Source: a virus. From it: 64,000 bases of DNA. The translations under genes were made by a program, and so were the position numbers. The stretch spans positions 1-64,000 of the IMG/VR virus record IMGVR_UViG_3300020185_000025; one strand, given 5' to 3'. The notes beneath the pieces were generated by a model that was not told the DNA's origin, did no database searches, and saw nothing but the letters and a program-made list of their open reading frames with translations. This document shows, in pieces, positions 2,977-44,802 of this stretch; position 1 is the first letter of the stretch, and every line of letters begins with the position of its first letter.

Positions 2977-3489
2977 TTATTCGCCTTTCAAATATGCAAG
3001 TACAACTTCAGGTTGTGTTTCACCATAAGGATCTGTTCCACAATCATCTTCCATCCCAGGTTCACTAAACATTCTTTCGACAGTACCATCGTCTACGACC
3101 ATAGCGTATCTCCAAGATCTTTTACCGAAACCGAGATTGTCCTTTGCGACTAACATATCCATTCCTGCTGTAAATTCGCAAGATCCGTCGGGAATCAATT
3201 TGATGTTTCTCACTCTCAAATCTTCAGCCCAAGCATTCATTACAAAAGTATCGTTACATGAAATACAATATACTTCATCGACACCAGCTTCTAGAATTTG
3301 ATCGTATAATACATCAAACCCAGGAACTTGGTTGTTAGAACATGTTGGAGTAAATGCACCAGGCAGTGAAAATACAACAACTCTTTTTCCTTTAAAGTAA
3401 TCGTCAGTAGTTGGGTGAACCCATTCAAACTCACCGGTTTCTACGTTTCTACGTCTTTCTTTAAATGTTACATTAGGGACTTGTCTCAT
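2977..3489 (-). CDS. Peroxiredoxin (Prx5/AhpC-TSA type)
   Basis: Thiol peroxidase that would reduce peroxides in the infected cell. The active-site motif PGAFTPTCS is clear, with the peroxidatic Cys in TPTC. The fold continues with VYCISCNDTFVMNAW and the conserved Arg region. The longer frame begins at a TTG (3507), but AGGAAA lies just upstream of ATG 3489, so I place the start there (170 residues). It follows hsp20 on the same strand, separated by a TTCG-loop hairpin. Together with glutaredoxin and Hsp20 it suggests management of stress during infection. Confidence 0.9.
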   Translation of the reverse strand: MRQVPNVTFKERRRNVETGEFEWVHPTTDDYFKGKRVVVFSLPGAFTPTCSNNQVPGFDVLYDQILEAGVDEVYCISCNDTFVMNAWAEDLRVRNIKLIPDGSCEFTAGMDMLVAKDNLGFGKRSWRYAMVVDDGTVERMFSEPGMEDDCGTDPYGETQPEVVLAYLKGE

Positions 3490-11259: not shown

Positions 11260-11694
11260 TTATTTATTAGAATCGACCACACGCTTGCGAAGCTCTGTGG
11301 AACTGAAGGAATGCCTTCTTCGATTATAATGTACAGGACACAAACCTTTTCCTGTATGTTCTTGATCTTTGTATTCTTCACCAACAATACGAATGTCAGG
11401 ATTGATTGTAAGAATCATATCAACGATTTCTTGTTCTGTAGAAAACGGTATTACCTCGTCTACATATTTACAAGATGATACTTGTATGTATCTTTCAAAA
11501 GGAGTCTGAATCGGCTTGTTCTTTGCGTCAGGACGATCTACGGTTGGGTCTGTTAATAATCCAACAATTAAATAATCACACATCGACTTTGCTTCTTGTA
11601 GCATAACGATATGACCTGCATGAAATAAATCAAAAGTTGAACATGTAAAGCCAACCTTTGCGCCTTCCGGCAATAGTGTTCTATCAAGAAACAT
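11260..11694 (-). CDS. Cytidylyltransferase-like nucleotidyltransferase (TagD type)
   Basis: A 144-residue HIGH-family enzyme. FDLFHAGHIVML carries the HxGH (25-28), and HSFSSTELRKR near the end supplies the second signature (RxSST..R type). Size and motifs match glycerol-3-phosphate cytidylyltransferase and related enzymes that make CDP-activated polyols or sugars. It overlaps the upstream glycosyltransferase gene by 11 bp. A HAD-kinase fusion two genes upstream could make the phosphorylated substrate. Confidence 0.85.
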   Translation of the reverse strand: MFLDRTLLPEGAKVGFTCSTFDLFHAGHIVMLQEAKSMCDYLIVGLLTDPTVDRPDAKNKPIQTPFERYIQVSSCKYVDEVIPFSTEQEIVDMILTINPDIRIVGEEYKDQEHTGKGLCPVHYNRRRHSFSSTELRKRVVDSNK

Positions 11695-12601
11695 ATCTAT
11701 TCTCCTCTTTTAATAATTCTTCAACAGCTTTTGCATACTGTGTATATAATGGTTCTTTATCAATTGGTAAGTAATGTATATATGCAGGAATCTTTTTAAG
11801 CTTCTTTACATCTTTCATTATTGTTGTCCATATACGAACATCACTACCAAATCTATCAGGTGCATAACCATTTTCATCAAGCCATTTATAATAGATGGCA
11901 TATATGTTTTGTTCTATGCACCAATACTTGCCACCCATACTTCTGTTGTTCTTTGCCGTACCATAAGCTGGTATGACTGAACCACCATAACCTTTTTTAT
12001 TCTTATACTTATATACACCATCCATGATAAGTATATATGTATCTTTACAAACTGCTCTTTGTAAGAACTCAAGATAATGTTCATTCTTACTATGTATTAC
12101 CTGTCCTGAGTTCATACTGAAATAAGGTTCTTTTCTCATGACTGATATATCAACTAAATCTTTATATAATGGAGATAAAGCTGACTCAACAAATTTACCC
12201 ATAACACCTAATGCAGATTCATTATAGAATACATACTCACTAAAGAAATAATGATCGAGCGGTTTAAGTAATAATACATCGTCGTCCATCATCATTGCTC
12301 TTTGGATATTAAGTACTTCATGTACATACGGAAAGACCAACCATTTAATTGCGACTCCGTATGAATCGAGAATCTTTAACAAATACTCTTCATCAAAGAA
12401 ATGCTTTGTTTTCTCAATCACATCAGTAGCATAATGTATATCAACTGAGTTTTCTATTGAATCTATATTATAAGTCGTTTTCCTATTATCTAGGATAACA
12501 TGTAAGCGTTGACATGTATCTTCTCCGTACACATTATAATACTTAAGAAGATTTTCAATTCTTTCAACTTTATTGCTTACTATGAATATGTCATTGTGCA
12601 T
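11684..12601 (-). CDS. Putative glycosyltransferase with DDD motif
   Basis: A 305-residue protein with a GT-A-like metal site in RAMMMDDDVLLLKPLD (DDD 106-108), then FSMNSGQVIHSKNEHYLEF and a C-terminal aromatic-rich region. No close family is recognised, but the motif and the neighbours (cytidylyltransferase and HAD-kinase) suggest transfer of a sugar or polyol-phosphate group. It overlaps both flanking genes by 11 bp. Confidence 0.6.
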   Translation of the reverse strand: MHNDIFIVSNKVERIENLLKYYNVYGEDTCQRLHVILDNRKTTYNIDSIENSVDIHYATDVIEKTKHFFDEEYLLKILDSYGVAIKWLVFPYVHEVLNIQRAMMMDDDVLLLKPLDHYFFSEYVFYNESALGVMGKFVESALSPLYKDLVDISVMRKEPYFSMNSGQVIHSKNEHYLEFLQRAVCKDTYILIMDGVYKYKNKKGYGGSVIPAYGTAKNNRSMGGKYWCIEQNIYAIYYKWLDENGYAPDRFGSDVRIWTTIMKDVKKLKKIPAYIHYLPIDKEPLYTQYAKAVEELLKEENRYVS

Positions 12602-13631
12602 AATTAATCATGTCCAGTAAATCGTTTACGCATTGAAGAATAAAGTCTTTATCAGGATGATACTTGTAAACTCTAATTACTTCAGCTGCGACTAAGGTAA
12701 GTAAATCGTATTTGTCTATCCAATGATTATATGCCAACAGTGTATTAATAGCCAGATCTTGTTCGGCCGTACTGTAATGATTAATCATCAGACTTGCTAT
12801 GAATTTTGCTATGTCAAGTTCACGACAGCCAAATACATTAGGAATAGGATCAATTAAGAACAATTTGTCTTCATTAAACAACATGTTCTTAACACCAAAA
12901 TCTCCATGACAATAACCGTATTCCAATTCGATTGTTGCCATCTTTTCAATTACTTCTTTAAATGGTTCAAGTTCTGCTAATTGAGCATGACTTGCTATTC
13001 TTGCGATATAATCATCAAAGGTTAGAAACTTATTTTGTTTAATAGTATCCAATCCATCAAGAGATTCTTGAATCATTGCCAAAGCTTTATAAGGATGATC
13101 TGAAAAATAGTTTGGATCGTTTTTAATATAATCCATTGTAAGTGTATCACCTACAACTCTGTGAATCGTTGGAGTATTAACAACAGAACCGGTTTCTTCA
13201 AACCACTTTGCGGCTTCATGAGCGTTTCTTGCCGTCTTATGTACTACATTGCCATCAGTATAGATATCAGAACCTGAGAGACCACCTTCTAGTTCTCTTA
13301 TATCAGTTTCTATAAAATCTTCAGGAGTAATACCTTTATCATCAACATAATATGCTGCAAGTGGTTTATCAAAAGACAGAGCATGATATTTTACATGATG
13401 TCTTTCTAACCAAGCTTCAATTTGTGGACCATACTTATTTGCTGCTTCGACTCTACTCCTACAAGAAATAGAACCACGAGCAGTAAAGATATCAACGATC
13501 CAACCAGAATCGTATAACTTATTACACTTTTCTATAAGGGCAAGATTTGGCTTTGCATTTTCCCAATCTCTGTTGGAGGTATATGCAAGCGTATCGTCAA
13601 AGTCGAGTACAATTCTTTTATGCATCGACAT
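12591..13631 (-). CDS. HAD phosphatase-kinase (APH/choline-kinase-like) fusion
   Basis: A 346-residue two-domain protein. Residues 1-110 are a HAD-type domain with DFDDT (10-14), a TARGS segment and YYVDDKG. Residues 115-346 resemble a small-molecule kinase of the aminoglycoside/choline kinase type: HGDFGVKN (242-249) is the catalytic loop and LIDP (259-262) carries the metal-binding Asp. Such proteins accompany cytidylyltransferases in capsule pathways. Here it would phosphorylate and dephosphorylate a small alcohol or sugar before CDP activation. It starts the tightly overlapped modification operon. Confidence 0.75.
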   Translation of the reverse strand: MSMHKRIVLDFDDTLAYTSNRDWENAKPNLALIEKCNKLYDSGWIVDIFTARGSISCRSRVEAANKYGPQIEAWLERHHVKYHALSFDKPLAAYYVDDKGITPEDFIETDIRELEGGLSGSDIYTDGNVVHKTARNAHEAAKWFEETGSVVNTPTIHRVVGDTLTMDYIKNDPNYFSDHPYKALAMIQESLDGLDTIKQNKFLTFDDYIARIASHAQLAELEPFKEVIEKMATIELEYGYCHGDFGVKNMLFNEDKLFLIDPIPNVFGCRELDIAKFIASLMINHYSTAEQDLAINTLLAYNHWIDKYDLLTLVAAEVIRVYKYHPDKDFILQCVNDLLDMINYAQ

Positions 13632-13886: not shown

Positions 13887-14332
13887 TGGTTTGTTCCATT
13901 TAAAAAGTGAACATCAACATTTGCTTCATCAAACATCCTTCTTGATTTTTCAAATGAATCTAACCACTTCTGTGGTATATCATCCATTGACATTACGATT
14001 TTATTTATGCCAACTTGAATAATTCCTTTTGCACAATCATGGCAAACTGGTAATCCAAAGACATATAGAGTTGCATCTTTTAACGAAATACCATTGAAGG
14101 TAGCATTATATATGCAATTCATTTCAGCATGAACAACCAAATCATATTTGATTGATCTGTCTTCATAACGTTCAGGTATATCTTCAATTCCTTTCGGAAA
14201 TCCATTATACCCAGTTGCTAGGATACGACGGTCAGAGTTAACTGCCACCGCACCTATTTGTTTTGAAGGATCCTTACTCCAAGTAGAGATCTCTCGGGCA
14301 ACACGCATAAAGCGGTAATCCCATTTATCCAT
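13883..14332 (-). CDS. cd: dCMP deaminase
   Basis: A 149-residue zinc enzyme converting dCMP to dUMP. HAEMNC (68-73) and PVCHDC (95-100) supply the zinc ligands and catalytic Glu. In T4 the same enzyme balances thymidylate and hydroxymethyl-dCMP supply. It overlaps the hydroxymethylase gene by 8 bp, so the two are coupled. Confidence 0.94.
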   Translation of the reverse strand: MDKWDYRFMRVAREISTWSKDPSKQIGAVAVNSDRRILATGYNGFPKGIEDIPERYEDRSIKYDLVVHAEMNCIYNATFNGISLKDATLYVFGLPVCHDCAKGIIQVGINKIVMSMDDIPQKWLDSFEKSRRMFDEANVDVHFLNGTNH

Positions 14333-14990
14333 TCTGCATTAACTCCTCAATAAACTCAAAATGTCTTTCGTATACATGGAAGTTAGATGCTGTCCAAATT
14401 AACTGACCAACCTCAACTCCAAGCTCAGTTGCTAATTGTTGCTGAACAAACCTTGCCCAGGCATAATCATTGTTATAACCAAAGACCGCATCGTTAGAAC
14501 GCATAAGATAATGTGATTCTAATTGACCATCTCGAATATAAAATGTATTAGCATAAGTACACATAAAGTCACTCATACCATCACGGTTATAATCAAGGTG
14601 CATACCAGGACGATTATAAATCATCGTAGCACGACGGCTGTTTGGATTATTTCTCAACTCTCGAAGTACATGGCTATATTGATTTCCATTCTCTTCTGAG
14701 TAAATACACCAACCATAATTAGAATTAATCTTACCTTCGTTAGAAGAGATTGATTTCCATATCTGTGGTGTTTCTCCAGGAATATCATCAACATATAATG
14801 ATTGAGACTTATACCATTCCAATTCACGTTCAATGTACTTATATGCTGGTTTACGAATTACATAATCTTCATCAGCATTAAAAGTTGCACCAATAATCTC
14901 GATGGTCTTTACACCAGTTTTATCAATAACAAAATCTTCTGCAAGATACTTGTCCATGATATAAGCTCGAATATCAGTTACGTTGTTCAT
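14325..14990 (-). CDS. gp42: dCMP hydroxymethylase (T4 gp42-like)
   Basis: Thymidylate-synthase fold enzyme making 5-hydroxymethyl-dCMP. The N-terminus DKTGVKTIEIIGA and the IPGETPQIW and NSNYGWCIYSE segments match T4 gp42 closely. The catalytic Cys lies in DFMC (C144). The specificity position reads YNNDYAW, with Asp175 where thymidylate synthases have Asn, so it should prefer dCMP. Length is 221 against 246 in T4. It implies that the phage DNA contains hydroxymethylcytosine. Confidence 0.92.
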   Translation of the reverse strand: MNNVTDIRAYIMDKYLAEDFVIDKTGVKTIEIIGATFNADEDYVIRKPAYKYIERELEWYKSQSLYVDDIPGETPQIWKSISSNEGKINSNYGWCIYSEENGNQYSHVLRELRNNPNSRRATMIYNRPGMHLDYNRDGMSDFMCTYANTFYIRDGQLESHYLMRSNDAVFGYNNDYAWARFVQQQLATELGVEVGQLIWTASNFHVYERHFEFIEELMQNG

Positions 14991-16580: not shown

Positions 16581-16994
16581 TTATTCTCCTTTTAAGTTTG
16601 GTAGGATACCGTGATTGCCTTCATGAGATGGAGCCGTCCATCCTTCAGGTTTCATCAGATCAGGTAATCCTAGTGGGTTTGGCCTTCCTTCCTTTACTCC
16701 AGGTTCCTTGGCCATGTTTGCTTCGAGAACTGCGTCCCAAGCTTTATAAGGATCGACTCCGAAGGCATCAAGAGTACCGATTGCCACTACACAAAGGTCA
16801 ACTAAACCATCTACGATTTCTTCGGAGTCGATAACTTTTTGGGCTGTTCTTGTTTCGGTTAACTCTTCTTCTAAAAAGTCAACTCGAAAACGCAAGAACG
16901 CCTTCAACTGATTTATATCTGCGTTTTCAATCCAGTCATGTGTTTTATACTTTGACTGCATTTCATTAATGTCTTTAACCCAATCTTTACTCAT
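16581..16994 (-). CDS. MazG-like nucleotide pyrophosphohydrolase
   Basis: A 137-residue all-alpha NTP pyrophosphatase. EEELTE (42-47) and EEIVDGLVD (58-66) form the Mg-binding helices, followed by KAWDAVLEANMAK. I start it at ATG 16994, which has AAGGA 8 nt upstream, rather than ten codons earlier. MazG proteins hydrolyse nucleotides including ppGpp in some reports; in this phage it could also remove dCTP, a job done by gp56 in T4, since no gp56-like gene is seen here. Confidence 0.82.
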   Translation of the reverse strand: MSKDWVKDINEMQSKYKTHDWIENADINQLKAFLRFRVDFLEEELTETRTAQKVIDSEEIVDGLVDLCVVAIGTLDAFGVDPYKAWDAVLEANMAKEPGVKEGRPNPLGLPDLMKPEGWTAPSHEGNHGILPNLKGE

Positions 16995-17298
16995 TTGGAT
17001 ATCCTTGTGAAATATAAACGCCAATCATACCAATTTGGCCTTCTGTTAATTTTTGGGCAGTTGGATACATCATTACTGATTGTGGTCCAACCGGTTCACC
17101 TGCTTTGTATTTTAATAACTTACCAATAATATCATCAGCAGATTGTCCTTGAAGTTTAGGACCGATTCCACCTTGACCTTGTGAACCATGACAGGCAGCA
17201 CAAGTAACCATTGTTGGTCTGATATCAGCGAAACGATCTTCAGCCAATGCGACTGATGTCATTCCTAATAGAGCAGTTGTTAATAAAACGTTCTTCAT
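16987..17298 (-). CDS. Periplasmic c-type cytochrome
   Basis: A 103-residue secreted electron carrier. Residues 1-19 are a signal peptide ending VALA, then a single heme site CAACH (33-37) and likely axial Met in QSVMMYPTAQ (76-77). The rest (QKLTEGQIGMIGVYISQGYP) matches class I cytochromes of the c4/c5/c553 kind found in proteobacteria. Heme attachment would need the host Ccm system. It overlaps glutaredoxin by 4 bp and MazG by 8 bp, so it is an integral operon member. Confidence 0.92.
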   Translation of the reverse strand: MKNVLLTTALLGMTSVALAEDRFADIRPTMVTCAACHGSQGQGGIGPKLQGQSADDIIGKLLKYKAGEPVGPQSVMMYPTAQKLTEGQIGMIGVYISQGYPNE

Positions 17299-17522
17299 AA
17301 TAATTCCCTTAATTGGTCAAAACCACCGATCTTTTCTTCGTCTTTAATAATCTGAGGAAAGGTTCTTGCGGTTGGAAAGATTTCAAAAAATTCGTCTTGA
17401 GAATAATCAAGACCTAAATGTAGGTACATATAATCAGTACCTTCTGCGAATCCTTTAGATTCACAAAGCTGTTTTGCCATTTTACAATAAGCGCAATTAT
17501 CTTTACCGTAGATCTTAATCAT
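17295..17522 (-). CDS. Glutaredoxin
   Basis: A 75-residue dithiol glutaredoxin with active site CAYC (10-13), the cis-Pro motif TFPQI (about 54-58) and the C-terminal GGFDQL. T4 NrdC is the analogue and serves ribonucleotide reductase. It shares an early promoter with the upstream Sm-like gene (1-bp overlap). Confidence 0.93.
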   Translation of the reverse strand: MIKIYGKDNCAYCKMAKQLCESKGFAEGTDYMYLHLGLDYSQDEFFEIFPTARTFPQIIKDEEKIGGFDQLRELL

Positions 17523-17866: not shown

Positions 17867-20425
17867 TTAACTGAAAAAATCTTCAATCGTATTTACCTTT
17901 TCAGCCGACCATCCAACTGCGTCAAGTATTGATTGAATAGGACTTAAGAATACTTTATCAAATTGAAGTTCAGTATCTATATATTGATGCAGTCCTAATT
18001 GTTTTGGTAAAAGACCAGGAACCGATATTGCGTTTTCACGAATCGGATTAGGTACTTTCAAATATAATAGTTTGACCTTATCTCCAGCTTGGATAGTTTC
18101 AAACTTCTTATCAAGTCCTTTCTCTTTAAGGAACTGATTATACATCAAGGATCCACGAACATGCATTGGTGTACCTTTTCGATATACTGAGCTTTTGTCT
18201 TGATACTTTTTAAGTTCAGATACACCTGAAGTCTTTGCGATTTGAATAGGATCCAATTTACGAAAGTCTTCTTTGAATTCTTTAATGAATTCTTGAGTTG
18301 TTTCTTCGTCGGTATTCATAATCACTTCAAAACATTTCTTGAGTTTCTCTCGACAGATTTCTGGTGTTGAAGATCTGACTGATTCCAAACCGGTAACTGA
18401 GATCTTAGGAGTATCATAATGTACACCTTCAGAGTTCAATGTATTTAGAATATATCGTTTCTTGGCAACAAAAATACCACGGTGAGCAATCTTTTCACGT
18501 TTCATTACCATTGCATTACGATATGTACCAAGATCAGCAGCAAGCTTTTCATAACCGTCTTCGATGATTTGTTCTATCTTTGTAGAGCAAACTCTATCAA
18601 GGAACTCTTCACCTTTGTCTTTATCAATATCAGTCGTACCAAATACTTCTGTAATCAGAGGACCGAAGTCAACATAGATAGAGTCAGTATCAATATAAAT
18701 GATATAGTCAATGTCAGTTGTACCTAGAATTTTGTTTAGGTAATCATTCACTGATTTCTGAGCATAACGAATACTAAGCTGGCCGCTTGTTGTAATTGCC
18801 TCTGCCATTTCATTAATATAGTATAAGAAATATACGTTAGCAGTTGCACCATACAAACTATTCATGGCAATCTTAATTGACATTTGCGAGTTATGTAATT
18901 GGTTGATCTCTTTCTTGAGCCTTTTGAGTTCAAGTGGATCTTTTTCAATCTCAAACTGTTGTTCAGCTGCGATCATCTGCTTTTTAATGACAGAACGGTT
19001 ATTATAATATTCTTCAATGATTTCAGGAATGATTCCTAACTTCTTATTAGAAAAGCAAACACCATTAGCAGCAACGGAAACTCCGTTACGATCATTCTGA
19101 TATTCACCTTTGAGTACCATGTCCTGAGTTACGTATTCACGATCATCAGGCATATAGGTTTCTGGTGACATATTATATTGTAGCATCAAGTGAGGATATA
19201 GAGAGTTAAGGTCAAAAGATACAACCCAAGGATGCATACCGACCTTTGGATCTTTTACATAACCACCTACAAGATCTCCTGCTCTTTGACCAGGACCACC
19301 TTTTAATGGAGGAACAATTTTATCTGCCATAAGTTTACGATATATGGTTGCTTCCCATATACCAACCGTACCAAATGCATCACCGTAGTTTACACCACCA
19401 TCATAAGCAACTGTACATACCAACGCAAGTAATCCTGTCTCTTCTTCAAGACGAGCAATCAGTTGAGTATCTTTAAGGTTATAGTCCAAATATAATTGTG
19501 GATTCTCATCCCATAAACCAGTTAGAGAACCATATTCAGAGTAATCAATTTTCTTTTCACCAAGAACAACATAAGCAATATGATCTAACTTGTATGATTC
19601 TTGAGGACCATACTTATAACCAAACTTCTTGAAGCAATCCATATAGTCAATAACAGCAACACCCATAATAGAATATGTTGAATTGACTTTACCGAAAATT
19701 TCTCGAGATCTTTGTTTGATTGATTTATGTGGAGATAACCGTCTTGCAGTATCTTCTCCAAGTAATGCTATGATACGAGTTACGATGTATTGAATGTCAA
19801 AGTACTCAACGTTCCAACCTGTAACGATATCAGGATAATCAGTTGTCCAAAGTTTCATAAAGTATTGAAGCAAAGCACGTTCACCGTCTACTCCATCAAA
19901 TAAAACAAACTTAATCTTATCTTGAGGAATATCAGTAACTGTCTTTGTCTTGTCATAATCTTTACGACCGAGTACATAATAGATATCTTCTCGAGAACTA
20001 TGATAAGCAAGTGACGTAATAGGTTTATCAGCAGTTTCCATATTAGGATAACCATCACTGATGTCAACCTCAATATCAAACGATACGATATTGACTTGAC
20101 TTACATCATAGGTAATCTTGCCTGGGTATTCTTCTTGAATAAACTGAGTCACATAATTTGTTGAACCAAACGTCTTCATACCGTGAACACCTTTGTATTC
20201 TTCGATGAAGTTCTTTGCTTCTCGCATATCACCAAACTTATGTGGAGATACAGGTAAGTTACCTTCTAAAGAGCGATAACCTTCTTCTCCTGCTTTTGGA
20301 GTATGAACATATAGAGTAGGCTGAAATGGAACGCGATACGAAAAACGTTTACCATTTTCGTAACCTCGATGTAAAATATTGTTTCCGTATCTTTCAACGG
20401 ATGTATAGAATTTAGTCAATGCCAT
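17867..20425 (-). CDS. gp43: DNA polymerase gp43 (family B)
   Basis: An 852-residue replicative polymerase with proofreading. Exonuclease motif I is SFDIEVD (115-121); polymerase motifs are SFDLNSLYPHL (A), KIAMNSLYGA (B) and YIDTDSIYV (C). The C-terminus LNTIEDFFS resembles the clamp-binding peptide of T4 gp43. Its own early promoter lies at 20451-20479. No intein or intron break is seen. Confidence 0.98.
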   Translation of the reverse strand: MALTKFYTSVERYGNNILHRGYENGKRFSYRVPFQPTLYVHTPKAGEEGYRSLEGNLPVSPHKFGDMREAKNFIEEYKGVHGMKTFGSTNYVTQFIQEEYPGKITYDVSQVNIVSFDIEVDISDGYPNMETADKPITSLAYHSSREDIYYVLGRKDYDKTKTVTDIPQDKIKFVLFDGVDGERALLQYFMKLWTTDYPDIVTGWNVEYFDIQYIVTRIIALLGEDTARRLSPHKSIKQRSREIFGKVNSTYSIMGVAVIDYMDCFKKFGYKYGPQESYKLDHIAYVVLGEKKIDYSEYGSLTGLWDENPQLYLDYNLKDTQLIARLEEETGLLALVCTVAYDGGVNYGDAFGTVGIWEATIYRKLMADKIVPPLKGGPGQRAGDLVGGYVKDPKVGMHPWVVSFDLNSLYPHLMLQYNMSPETYMPDDREYVTQDMVLKGEYQNDRNGVSVAANGVCFSNKKLGIIPEIIEEYYNNRSVIKKQMIAAEQQFEIEKDPLELKRLKKEINQLHNSQMSIKIAMNSLYGATANVYFLYYINEMAEAITTSGQLSIRYAQKSVNDYLNKILGTTDIDYIIYIDTDSIYVDFGPLITEVFGTTDIDKDKGEEFLDRVCSTKIEQIIEDGYEKLAADLGTYRNAMVMKREKIAHRGIFVAKKRYILNTLNSEGVHYDTPKISVTGLESVRSSTPEICREKLKKCFEVIMNTDEETTQEFIKEFKEDFRKLDPIQIAKTSGVSELKKYQDKSSVYRKGTPMHVRGSLMYNQFLKEKGLDKKFETIQAGDKVKLLYLKVPNPIRENAISVPGLLPKQLGLHQYIDTELQFDKVFLSPIQSILDAVGWSAEKVNTIEDFFS

Positions 20426-41317: not shown

Positions 41318-41941
41318 ATGAAAAACATATTCGCAGCATTTCTATTAATGCTATCAACAACTGCATTCGCAGACCTCAGTGGTTCAGCCACTATCACAAA
41401 CGATTACGTATGGAGAGGAATGACTCAAGGCGCAGAGAATGCCCTTCAAGTCGGAATCGACTACAACAACGACAAAGGATTTTATATTGGTGCATGGACA
41501 TCAGATGTAGATTTCGGTGGAGAAGTTGACCGTGAAGTGGATCTATATGCAGGGTGGAGTGGAGCTCTTGTAGACGGAGTACTTGATGTAACTGTTGGTT
41601 ATATTAAATACGACTATCAAGGCGATGCTTTTGATTTCGAAGAGTATTTGGTTGGATTCAGTAGTAATGGTTTTACAGTAAACTATTATGATACTGTTGA
41701 TTCAGATACATATACAGTCGAAGCAATCTATGCAGTACCATTTATTACAGTGGTAGATGTTGAACTAATTGGCTATGAGATTGGTGGAGAAGGTACGGAA
41801 GTATTCGGACAATTCCAAGACTCGGTTGGTCTTAGATTAACAAAAGAACTTAATGATAGGTTCTCTGTAGGTTTTAATGTTGGTCAAGATTTAGTGGCTG
41901 ACAGTAATTACTATGCCTTTAGCGTAAGCGCAAGTCTGTAA
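41318..41941 (+). CDS. Outer-membrane porin-like protein (TorF/TIGR02001 type)
   Basis: A 207-residue secreted protein. Residues 1-18 form a signal peptide ending TAFA. The mature part starts DLSGSATITNDYVWRGMTQG and continues GIDYNNDKGFYIGAWTSDVD, the signature of a proteobacterial outer-membrane family (TorF, TIGR02001), with alternating beta strands to the end (YAFSVSASL). An AAGGAG site and a strong terminator frame the gene. It would insert a phage barrel in the host outer membrane: uptake of nutrients or blocking of superinfection are possible roles. Confidence 0.85.
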   Translation: MKNIFAAFLLMLSTTAFADLSGSATITNDYVWRGMTQGAENALQVGIDYNNDKGFYIGAWTSDVDFGGEVDREVDLYAGWSGALVDGVLDVTVGYIKYDYQGDAFDFEEYLVGFSSNGFTVNYYDTVDSDTYTVEAIYAVPFITVVDVELIGYEIGGEGTEVFGQFQDSVGLRLTKELNDRFSVGFNVGQDLVADSNYYAFSVSASL

Positions 41942-42647: not shown

Positions 42648-42968
42648 CTATGTTTTGAATTGAACAGAAACACCACACCCACAAGAAGATTCCTCCTGTG
42701 GATTAATAATCTTAAAACTTTCGTTCAGTCCTATTTTAGCCCAATCTAATATTGAGCCATTTAAAAACGGTAATGATTTTTCATCAATTACTATTTTAAA
42801 CTTTCCGTAATCTGTTATAGTATCATCGCTATTAATTTCGTCAGCATAATCAATAACGTACTCCCAGCCAGCGCAGCCGCTAGGAATAATGCCAATCCTA
42901 ATATCGCTAGACGACGATCCTGCCGTTCTTTCAATCGCTTTAGATAGTGCTGCATCTGTGAGCTCCAT
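42648..42968 (-). CDS. A-type iron-sulfur carrier (IscA/ErpA/HesB family)
   Basis: A 106-residue protein with the three conserved Cys of A-type carriers: C32 in SGCAGWEY and C96/C98 in SSCGCGVSVQF. It would deliver Fe-S clusters to client proteins. Homologues occur in some marine phages. It overlaps the upstream gene by 1 bp and sits 64 codons from the lipase. Together with heme oxygenase and cytochrome c it points to iron handling during infection. Confidence 0.88.
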   Translation of the reverse strand: MELTDAALSKAIERTAGSSSSDIRIGIIPSGCAGWEYVIDYADEINSDDTITDYGKFKIVIDEKSLPFLNGSILDWAKIGLNESFKIINPQEESSCGCGVSVQFKT

Positions 42969-43342
42969 TACTTTTTGCGCTTCTTCTCAATTTTATCCAA
43001 TCTTATATTGATATCGTCAATTAAATTTTTCAACTCTGATGCTCCACCTGGTTCAATAGGTTTATGAGCAATTGATTCCATGAATTTAATTCTGGTTTCT
43101 AGCTCGTCAATCTTTCCTGTGATACGTGGATACTTTTTTCTCCATGCGTCAGGATCAGTTTGTAACCAAGTCCATCCCCATCTTACCGCTAAGTATTCCA
43201 AGAAAGAATCAAATTTACCAACAGCCCATAGAGCCATCCTTGTATCTTTAAACCAAAACAAGAATCCTGCACCGGCGATTGAACCTAAAATTGCTGTGTA
43301 GATCCATAGAGTATCGTCCGTTAGTCTCTCTAAAAGTTCCAT
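42968..43342 (-). CDS. Membrane-anchored coiled-coil protein
   Basis: A 124-residue protein with one N-terminal span (about 13-31), a Trp-rich middle (VRWGWTWLQTDPDAWRKK) and a C-terminal coiled coil. It overlaps the lipase stop by 1 bp. A spanin-like or lysis role is possible but unproven. Confidence 0.55.
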   Translation of the reverse strand: MELLERLTDDTLWIYTAILGSIAGAGFLFWFKDTRMALWAVGKFDSFLEYLAVRWGWTWLQTDPDAWRKKYPRITGKIDELETRIKFMESIAHKPIEPGGASELKNLIDDINIRLDKIEKKRKK

Positions 43343-44088
43343 TAGTTATCCTTTGTATATTTTGTATAGTTATCCATTGAGTGGTCAGAAAGGCCGTCAA
43401 AAGGCTTTAATTGAATCCACGAAGTAGCAATTCCTCGTAGTTTATCTTTTAACTTTCTCCACCAAGCAAGGTTTTTGATAATCCCATTATAGTTAAAATA
43501 CATAACTTGGCCGTGATGTCGATAACCCATAAACCAAGGTGGTATAACAGTTACGAGGTCATTGTTATTTACAAAACGATAATGTTCAAGATCAGCACAC
43601 TCCTTTACGAATGCAGCATTACCAACTCTTGGTGATCCAAATGTATATAGAACGGGTTTGCGTTTAAGTAATCTCGAAGCAGCAATTGTTGCCATTGCTC
43701 CACCTAATGAATGACCGCATATAGAAATATGTTTTGTGGCATGCTTTGAAAGTACTTTCAGAACATCGTCCCAGATATCATCTATTTCGTTTTGGAATCC
43801 ATTATGTACCCAACCACCAACCTGAGCTTTATCAGGCCAAATGTTGAGATCTGCTTTAAGATCATTGAGTTCGGTAGGTTCTGTACCACGGCAGCATAGA
43901 ACAAACTCTTCTTTGTTCCATACACAATGAGCTTGTGCACCGTCATGGTCAATAAACTTATGACCGGTATAACCTAATTTTTTGAAGATAGGCTTTGCTG
44001 TTTTACCATCTTCGTAGGCAATCTTTGCCATTTCAGCGAATTTAATCGCCTCACTTTTTACATCACAAAATTGTACTTTCTGTTTCAT
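43342..44088 (-). CDS. Class 3 lipase
   Basis: A 248-residue alpha/beta hydrolase of the Lipase_3 family. The nucleophile Ser lies in CGHSLGGAMAT, a conserved FGSPRVGN follows, then NNDLVTVIPP with the acid residue and DHSMDNYTKY with the His. I start at ATG 44088 (AGGAG upstream). No signal peptide is seen. Late control (44129-44136) and the membrane-protein neighbours suggest a role in lysis or envelope damage; lipid scavenging is an alternative. Confidence 0.88.
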   Translation of the reverse strand: MKQKVQFCDVKSEAIKFAEMAKIAYEDGKTAKPIFKKLGYTGHKFIDHDGAQAHCVWNKEEFVLCCRGTEPTELNDLKADLNIWPDKAQVGGWVHNGFQNEIDDIWDDVLKVLSKHATKHISICGHSLGGAMATIAASRLLKRKPVLYTFGSPRVGNAAFVKECADLEHYRFVNNNDLVTVIPPWFMGYRHHGQVMYFNYNGIIKNLAWWRKLKDKLRGIATSWIQLKPFDGLSDHSMDNYTKYTKDN

Positions 44089-44128
44089 GTGGTCTCCTAT
44101 TGAGATATATACAATTAAGTTCAACAAT

Positions 44129-44178: not shown

Positions 44179-44802
44179 ATGTCAAACAATCTAAAAGAAT
44201 TAACTCGCCAACACCACGATAACGCAGAAAGAACAGAATTCGCAGAAATGCTACTATCGGGCAATATCAGCCCAAAACTATACCAAGAATATTTACACGC
44301 GCAATTACAAAACTATATGGTTTTAGAATCAGCCGTTGAAGTGCCTATGGAATTAGAACCTATATTTAGGTCAACATCAATTGAAGAAGACTTACAAGAA
44401 TTAGAAAACACGTTTGATCTTGAAGAAATTGAAGATAACTTCGAGTCAACATTAGAATATAATAAACATATACTAACTTTACTCGAGGAGGGTAATAATG
44501 AAGGTCTTCTTGCTCATCTATATGTGCGTCATTTTGGAGATGCTCATGGCGGACAAATCATCAAAAGAAACGTACCTGGGTCGGGTCTTATGTATGAATT
44601 CGAGAATAGAGCCGAACTTATTAAAAGCGTAAGAGAACTATTACACGACGGAATGGCTGACGAAGCAATGATTTGCTTTGAGTACGCAGAAAGATTATTT
44701 CATGAACTCATGGAAAATTATAGAAACAACGCTGAGAACTACGAACCTGAAGATTATGCAAGAGCAAGAACAATGGATGCGTGGGACGAAGATGATAGTT
44801 GA
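44179..44802 (+). CDS. ho1: Heme oxygenase
   Basis: A 207-residue enzyme cleaving heme to biliverdin, CO and iron. The proximal His is H13 in LTRQHHDNAERTEF, and the distal helix reads FGDAHGGQIIKRNVPG, as in HO-1. The C-terminal part is acidic. Overlap of 11 bp with the bilin reductase gene argues for coupled translation and channelling of biliverdin. Confidence 0.94.
   Translation: MSNNLKELTRQHHDNAERTEFAEMLLSGNISPKLYQEYLHAQLQNYMVLESAVEVPMELEPIFRSTSIEEDLQELENTFDLEEIEDNFESTLEYNKHILTLLEEGNNEGLLAHLYVRHFGDAHGGQIIKRNVPGSGLMYEFENRAELIKSVRELLHDGMADEAMICFEYAERLFHELMENYRNNAENYEPEDYARARTMDAWDEDDS

Follow-up and report, generated by a model that had tools for sequence, protein, structure and literature searches.

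A cytochrome c gene in a T4-like phage

An uncultivated phage, judged T4-like by its gene neighbourhood, carries a gene for a small c-type cytochrome that belongs to a conserved, phage-specific family. The protein is probably a functional periplasmic electron carrier that would sustain host respiration during infection; we infer its heme attachment, its partners and its benefit to the phage from the evidence set out below.

The stretch of DNA analysed (the window) spans positions 1-64000 of an 88,997-bp IMG/VR virus record. The cytochrome gene occupies window positions 16987-17298 and encodes 103 residues, as the sequence-only reading had it; that reading gave no strand, and the gene lies on the minus strand, the plus frame across the same interval having 11 stops. 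The translation begins with MKNVLLTTALLGMTSVALA, continues after the predicted cleavage site with EDRFADIRPTMVTCAACHG and further on contains QSVMMYPTA. It has all three of the features first pointed out in it, namely a signal peptide ending in VALA, a CAACH motif and a plausible methionine ligand. Read from the sequence, the predicted Sec signal peptide comprises residues 1-19 (MKNVLLTTALLGMTSVALA; 17242-17298, minus strand), with cleavage between VALA and ED, and most relatives of the same type likewise have a charged n-region, a hydrophobic core and an AXA site. The heme-attachment motif (C33-A-A-C36-H37, residues 33-37) is encoded at 17188-17202 and the predicted distal axial heme ligand, Met77, at 17068-17070, both on the minus strand. 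An AAGGGA Shine-Dalgarno-like site precedes the ATG (17305-17310, minus strand). Only one of the 158 window ORFs of 60 aa or more contains CxxCH, and it is the cytochrome ORF (expectation from residue shuffling, 0.16). The ORF matches the Pfam family PF00034 (Cytochrom_C) with 25.7 bits (E 3e-5; gathering score 21.3).

The gene overlaps both of its neighbours, as had been noticed at the outset, and Pfam matches bear out the identities then given to them. Upstream is a glutaredoxin gene (17295-17522, minus strand; PF00462; 4-bp overlap) and downstream a gene for a MazG-like pyrophosphohydrolase of the MazG/PRA-PH fold (16581-16994, minus strand; PF01503, E 5e-9; 8-bp overlap). The wider surroundings hold gp43, gp46, gp47, a thymidylate-synthase-like enzyme, dCMP deaminase, UvsW and gp55, of which gp46, gp47, gp55 and UvsW were named from ORF reading and gene order. 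The T4-like DNA polymerase gp43 (17867-20425, same minus strand as the cytochrome) shares 44.6% identity over its full length with its counterpart in Phage C48C1 (Kyanoviridae). Membership of the cytochrome in an early operon, as first proposed, would follow from the gp43-gp46-gp47 neighbourhood. In tens of contigs gp46, gp43, the thymidylate-synthase-like gene and dCMP deaminase flank the cytochrome, which thus lies between phage genes in a phage genome, where a phage auxiliary metabolic gene is expected.

The thymidylate-synthase-like enzyme deserves a remark of its own. This ThyA-like protein (window 14325-14990) scores 67 bits against a thymidylate synthase cut-off of 327 and may be a nucleotide hydroxymethylase. 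The same phage also encodes ThyX (L094:7279-7977, about G000:C1:70778-71476).

Predicted structure and class

What kind of cytochrome is it? In the AlphaFold2 model (pLDDT 80, pTM 0.70) the mature helices have, for the greater part, a pLDDT of about 90 or higher, whereas it is low for residues 1-20, the signal peptide region; the predicted chain has the helical fold of cytochrome c. Its best matches in the PDB are 8yts (Z 9.9; Thioalkalivibrio paradoxus c546/556), 5n1t_B (9.7) and 2zzs (9.2; Vibrio c554), followed by Desulfovibrio c553 and then by 8smr_K, the cytochrome c4 of the P. aeruginosa bc1-cbb3 supercomplex (Z 8.0). The likeness is thus to small monoheme class I cytochromes such as Vibrio c554 (2zzs), P. 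nautica c552 (1cno), T. paradoxus c546/556 (8yts) and Desulfovibrio c553 (1c53/1dvh), with which the phage protein shares one CxxCH, a Met ligand, a mature domain of about 80 residues, the fold (Z 8-10) and a signal peptide. Unlike them, the phage copies are encoded by phages, have an aromatic residue after the axial Met, form a clade of their own and include subfamilies that are anchored and bear CxxxC.

Cytochrome c4 (COG2863 type) has a similar core around the heme (GPKLAGQ...KLxxYKxG...M...A...L), and the phage domain superposes on c4 domains. However, c4 has two heme domains, whereas the window protein has a single CxxCH in 103 aa and one domain in the model, so that an identity as c4 was rejected. 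SoxX or SoxD was likewise rejected: the NCBIfam SoxX score is 18.8 bits against a cut-off of 61, and no Sox gene was recognised in the neighbourhood.

Motif, ligand, signal peptide, predicted fold, purifying selection and occurrence in 78 viral contigs strongly support the view, already taken in the sequence-only reading, that this is a phage-encoded periplasmic c-type cytochrome; it would be a small monoheme class I protein, exported by Sec and carrying attached heme.

A phage family of cytochromes

Relatives were found in 18 IMG/VR contigs in a first scan and in 78 viral contigs in a second. No relative was found in 50,697 GenBank phage records (INPHARED) by tblastn with three subfamilies, none of the PHROGs v4 profiles was matched by the window protein, L013, the anchored type of L068 or the type C protein of L087, and a scan of genome contigs yielded distant multi-domain cytochromes only. 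The description of the gene as a rare phage auxiliary gene accordingly holds for phage isolates, where it is absent, but not for uncultivated T4-like phages, where it is widespread. Nor did the open-access literature, a body that leaves out most subscription journals and all preprints, yield any description of a monoheme cytochrome c in soluble form from a phage. Class I cytochromes c themselves are old; a conserved, phage-specific monoheme family, soluble or anchored and linked to the alternative oxidase (AOX), did not turn up in the papers searched.

The family comprises three types. Type A proteins are secreted, like that of the window. Type B proteins have a membrane helix at the N terminus, with a C-x3-C motif ahead of the heme domain, and a type B model shows the same heme-domain helices preceded by an N-terminal helix some 25 residues long. 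Type C proteins are divergent, some having an N-terminal membrane helix. In the anchored cytochromes of L067, L068, L070, L082 and L069-L084, the motif between helix and heme domain is conserved as C-x3-C-[YH].

Had relatives lost the CxxCH motif, a functional cytochrome would be in doubt; all 50 distinct complete phage proteins retain it, and Cys33, Cys36, His37 and Met77 are invariant among them (the Met also in 68/68 bacterial homologues). The residue directly after the Met77 column is W, Y or F in 50/50 phage proteins vs 0/68 of the closest bacterial domains, and this provides a sequence signature by which phage cytochromes can be tracked in metagenomes. Such a change beside the axial Met could also point to an altered carrier that competes with the host cytochrome c, or to a heme sink, through which the phage would reprogram or dampen respiration, and several relatives do encode AOX, which bypasses proton pumping. 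Every residue of a normal electron carrier is nevertheless retained, and domain 1 of Acidithiobacillus cytochrome c4 (1h1o) has MW at this position, which is compatible with normal transfer; we consider diversion or poisoning of this kind distinctly improbable.

The glutaredoxin-cytochrome-MazG order is kept in 41 contigs, and what happens at this slot in four close relatives is instructive. In L068, blastn shows the segment 17015-17293 (minus strand) to be replaced by a divergent, membrane-anchored cytochrome, with near-identical limits in L067, L070 and L082: homology to the window ends at about 17290-17294 and restarts at 17014 in L067, L068 and L070, and the limits in L082 are 17350 and 17014, with flanks about 81-90% identical in all four. 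The incoming protein is of type B and about 46% identical to that of the window; in L067, L068 and L070 its gene is also preceded by AAGGGA. One whole cytochrome has therefore been swapped for another with unchanged flanks, the strongest sign that selection keeps a cytochrome c at this place.

The gene might instead be a functionless passenger in a variable slot, or an assembly artefact. The fast turnover of auxiliary slots in T4-like phages and the absence of the gene from phage isolates would fit a passenger. Against this stand the 78 contigs, 41 of them with the same order, the invariant ligands, replacement by another cytochrome only, and dN/dS ratios (NG86, 24 informative pairs) of 0.08-0.44, which indicate purifying selection since they are mostly about 0.2. 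A passenger is hence disfavoured by the present data and, in our estimate, very improbable.

Phylogeny and bacterial source

Bacterial homologues were collected from 398 genomes (the phylum of an Arenicellaceae MAG), 369 genomes (the class of its best match), 289 genomes (the class of G050) and 62 genomes (the order of the best genome). The presence of ALA synthase in the seed genome led us to treat the class of G050 as Alphaproteobacteria. The phylogeny against bacterial cytochromes proposed at the outset was run on two alignments of 77-81 columns with midpoint roots. A branch sets all phage rows apart, its support being 100/100 in the first tree (50 phage, 60 bacterial sequences) and 100/93 in the second (27 phage, 68 bacterial), which is not fully settled. 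As judged from these alignments, the phage cytochromes form one supported clade apart from the sampled bacterial cytochromes.

From which bacteria did the gene come? The best score in the class of G237 was 85 bits, as against 46 bits in the 289 genomes of the G050 class, so that an alphaproteobacterial source is the less likely. The closest bacterial order, in which 58 of 62 genomes have a match, is very likely that of Thiomicrospira, sulfur-oxidising gammaproteobacteria. There the homologue has rsgA (named from ORF reading) on one side and, on the other, a c4-like cytochrome next to a DUF3683/FAD-linked oxidase. One member, Thiomicrospira (Thioalkalimicrobium) cyclica ALM1, is reported to have bc1 and a single cbb3 oxidase (PMC4891895). 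This result bears on the source of the gene and not necessarily on the phage host, and the ALA synthase of the phage gives no host prediction, its identity to bacterial proteins being flat at 46-56%.

A respiring proteobacterial host, as suggested in the sequence-only reading, is plausible given the gammaproteobacterial nearest homologues and the outcome of a search for psbA/psbD (PF00124), which found none in 18 records, many of them fragments, while detecting the positive control. The same observations bear on the idea that the hosts are cyanobacteria and that the protein replaces cytochrome c6 or plastocyanin. The gp43 of the window is nearest to those of C48C1 (Kyanoviridae) and Synechococcus phages, and cyanophages are known to carry genes for plastoquinol oxidases of the AOX family and for heme oxygenase (for hemO, PMC11480375). 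Besides the missing psbA/psbD and the gammaproteobacterial affinity, however, cyanobacterial and algal c6 chains match the model with Z about 5, below the 9-10 of the c554/c553 types. The data disfavour a c6 substitute, to which we attach very little probability.

Respiratory and heme genes in these phages

Several genes in these phages touch on heme and respiration. A heme oxygenase gene in the window (44179-44802, plus strand; PF01126, E 5e-20) may be functionally linked to the cytochrome; it has relatives in G004 and G008. A 5-aminolevulinate (ALA) synthase is encoded outside the window at record positions G000:C1:74502-75704 (L094:11003-12205; TIGR01821, 553 bits, cut-off 338.6), where it adjoins a fused glutaredoxin-ribonucleotide reductase gene. 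The record also encodes serine hydroxymethyltransferase (SHMT), an enzyme that yields glycine, a substrate of ALA synthase. G004 and G018 have a different gene order; there, the strand of the cytochrome also carries ALA synthase, at a distance of 2.8 kb, and SHMT, at 0.15 kb. Genes for oxidative stress and iron-sulfur metabolism make up a further set, consisting of peroxiredoxin (phrog_2281; window 2977-3489), IscA (window 42648-42968) and, elsewhere in the record, IscU (G000:C1:79925-80368).

AOX accompanies the cytochrome in seven distinct phage groups (G004/L056, L041, L052, G010/L063, L065-66, L072-74 and L084), identified by PF01786 (214 bits) for the G004 copy and by tblastn to that copy for the others. 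In L041, AOX follows a type A cytochrome without a gap (cytochrome stop 4399, AOX start 4400); in L084, AOX precedes a type B cytochrome and its stop shares one base with the cytochrome ATG. Such AOX genes in T4-like phages without photosystem genes lie at L041:4400-4981, about L084:7249-7812, L148:11984-12577 and L195:18397-18978. Seven contigs have an isocitrate lyase gene (about 600 bits, cut-off 562) close to that of the cytochrome. Copies lie at L183:2685-3917 and L196:8893-10113 and in L045, L052, L062, L064 and L089, and are 71-100% identical to one another by tblastn.

We propose that the cytochrome would be exported via Sec to the host periplasm and there receive heme from the host's own cytochrome c maturation system; maturation is presumably a host function since a search of 18 phage records, including many fragments, did not turn up the assembly protein PF01578 (Ccm/Ccs). 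It could then act, on the oxidising side of the quinone pool, as a mobile carrier that accepts electrons from the bc1 complex, or from dehydrogenases in the periplasm, and passes them to a terminal cytochrome c oxidase. With host genes shut down, the added carrier would maintain electron flow, proton-motive force and ATP supply, and the anchored type would play this part while bound to the membrane. For the earlier suggestion that the protein keeps respiration going, the evidence is thus one of context: AOX adjacency in relatives, and a genome that encodes ALA synthase and heme oxygenase as well as the cytochrome. The AOX link supports respiration generally and not the exact wiring because AOX takes electrons from quinol, not from cytochrome c. 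It counts against a respiratory role that many of the contigs with a cytochrome lack AOX and ALA synthase, though most of these contigs are fragments, and that the glutaredoxin and MazG neighbours have redox and nucleotide functions.

The glutaredoxin neighbour, and the peroxiredoxin in the same genome, would suit a real c-type cytochrome that serves not the main chain but one specific periplasmic enzyme, be it a peroxidase or a dehydrogenase for sulfur compounds or alcohol, or that acts as a general redox/ROS buffer. The structural neighbours include dehydrogenase partners (5n1t, flavocytochrome c; SorU, 4pwa/4pw9), and the DUF3683/FAD-linked oxidase adjoining the nearest bacterial homologues fits too. 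Yet no peroxidase or dehydrogenase gene was recognised beside the phage cytochromes, and in two independent operons the cytochrome is paired with a terminal oxidase. We judge such a partner unlikely and retain the respiratory carrier as the probable function.

Relation to known phage systems

Cyanophages carry plastocyanin (petE) and the plastoquinol oxidase PTOX, an electron carrier and an oxidase believed to keep the host supplied with energy. The present case is alike in this, but has a heme carrier of proteobacterial type and no photosystem genes. A c-type cytochrome, SoxD, has also been reported in uncultivated phages (Kieft et al. 2021, PMC8190135). This cytochrome subunit of sulfane dehydrogenase occurs in two phage contigs, with soxC adjacent in one; both copies are without the second cytochrome motif and one also without the first (PMC8190135). 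In contrast, no soxC was recognised in the present case. Cassettes with ALA synthase (vAlaS) and heme oxygenase in T4-like aquatic phages have been proposed to support respiratory heme proteins; the available part of that report names no phage cytochrome c (PMC11480375), whereas the present phage carries a heme protein too. Other reports describe cbb3 subunit reads in the viral fraction (PMC3474794), electron-transport genes detected by reads (PMC4053976), aceBA in one phage genome (PMC5332604) and isocitrate lyase under Antarctic ice (PMC10721903).

By analogy, these findings suggest that phages may tune host respiration in infection as cyanophages do photosynthesis. More broadly, and giving it not quite an even chance, we offer the hypothesis that a large group of uncultivated T4-like phages has a modular respiratory toolkit: a c-type cytochrome lineage of its own, soluble or anchored and interchangeable in one slot, often joined by AOX, ALA synthase (heme supply) or isocitrate lyase (succinate), which would control quinone-to-oxygen electron flow in infected proteobacteria as a non-photosynthetic counterpart of the cyanophage photosynthesis genes. 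How phages steer the energy metabolism of their hosts is well documented where photosynthesis is concerned, but hardly at all for respiration. A conserved family whose members give way only to other cytochromes, and which twice shares an operon with a terminal oxidase, makes the proposition that phages run host respiration directly testable.

The window also encodes a TorF/Gcw_chp-type outer-membrane porin with a signal peptide (41318-41941; TIGR02001, 83 bits, cut-off 47) and a class 3 lipase-like protein (43342-44091; PF01764, E 1e-23). At 11260-13631, a cytidylyltransferase-like gene is followed by two neighbours, one having a kinase-like (APH/choline-kinase) C-terminal part, and these genes are possibly a sugar or lipid modification set.
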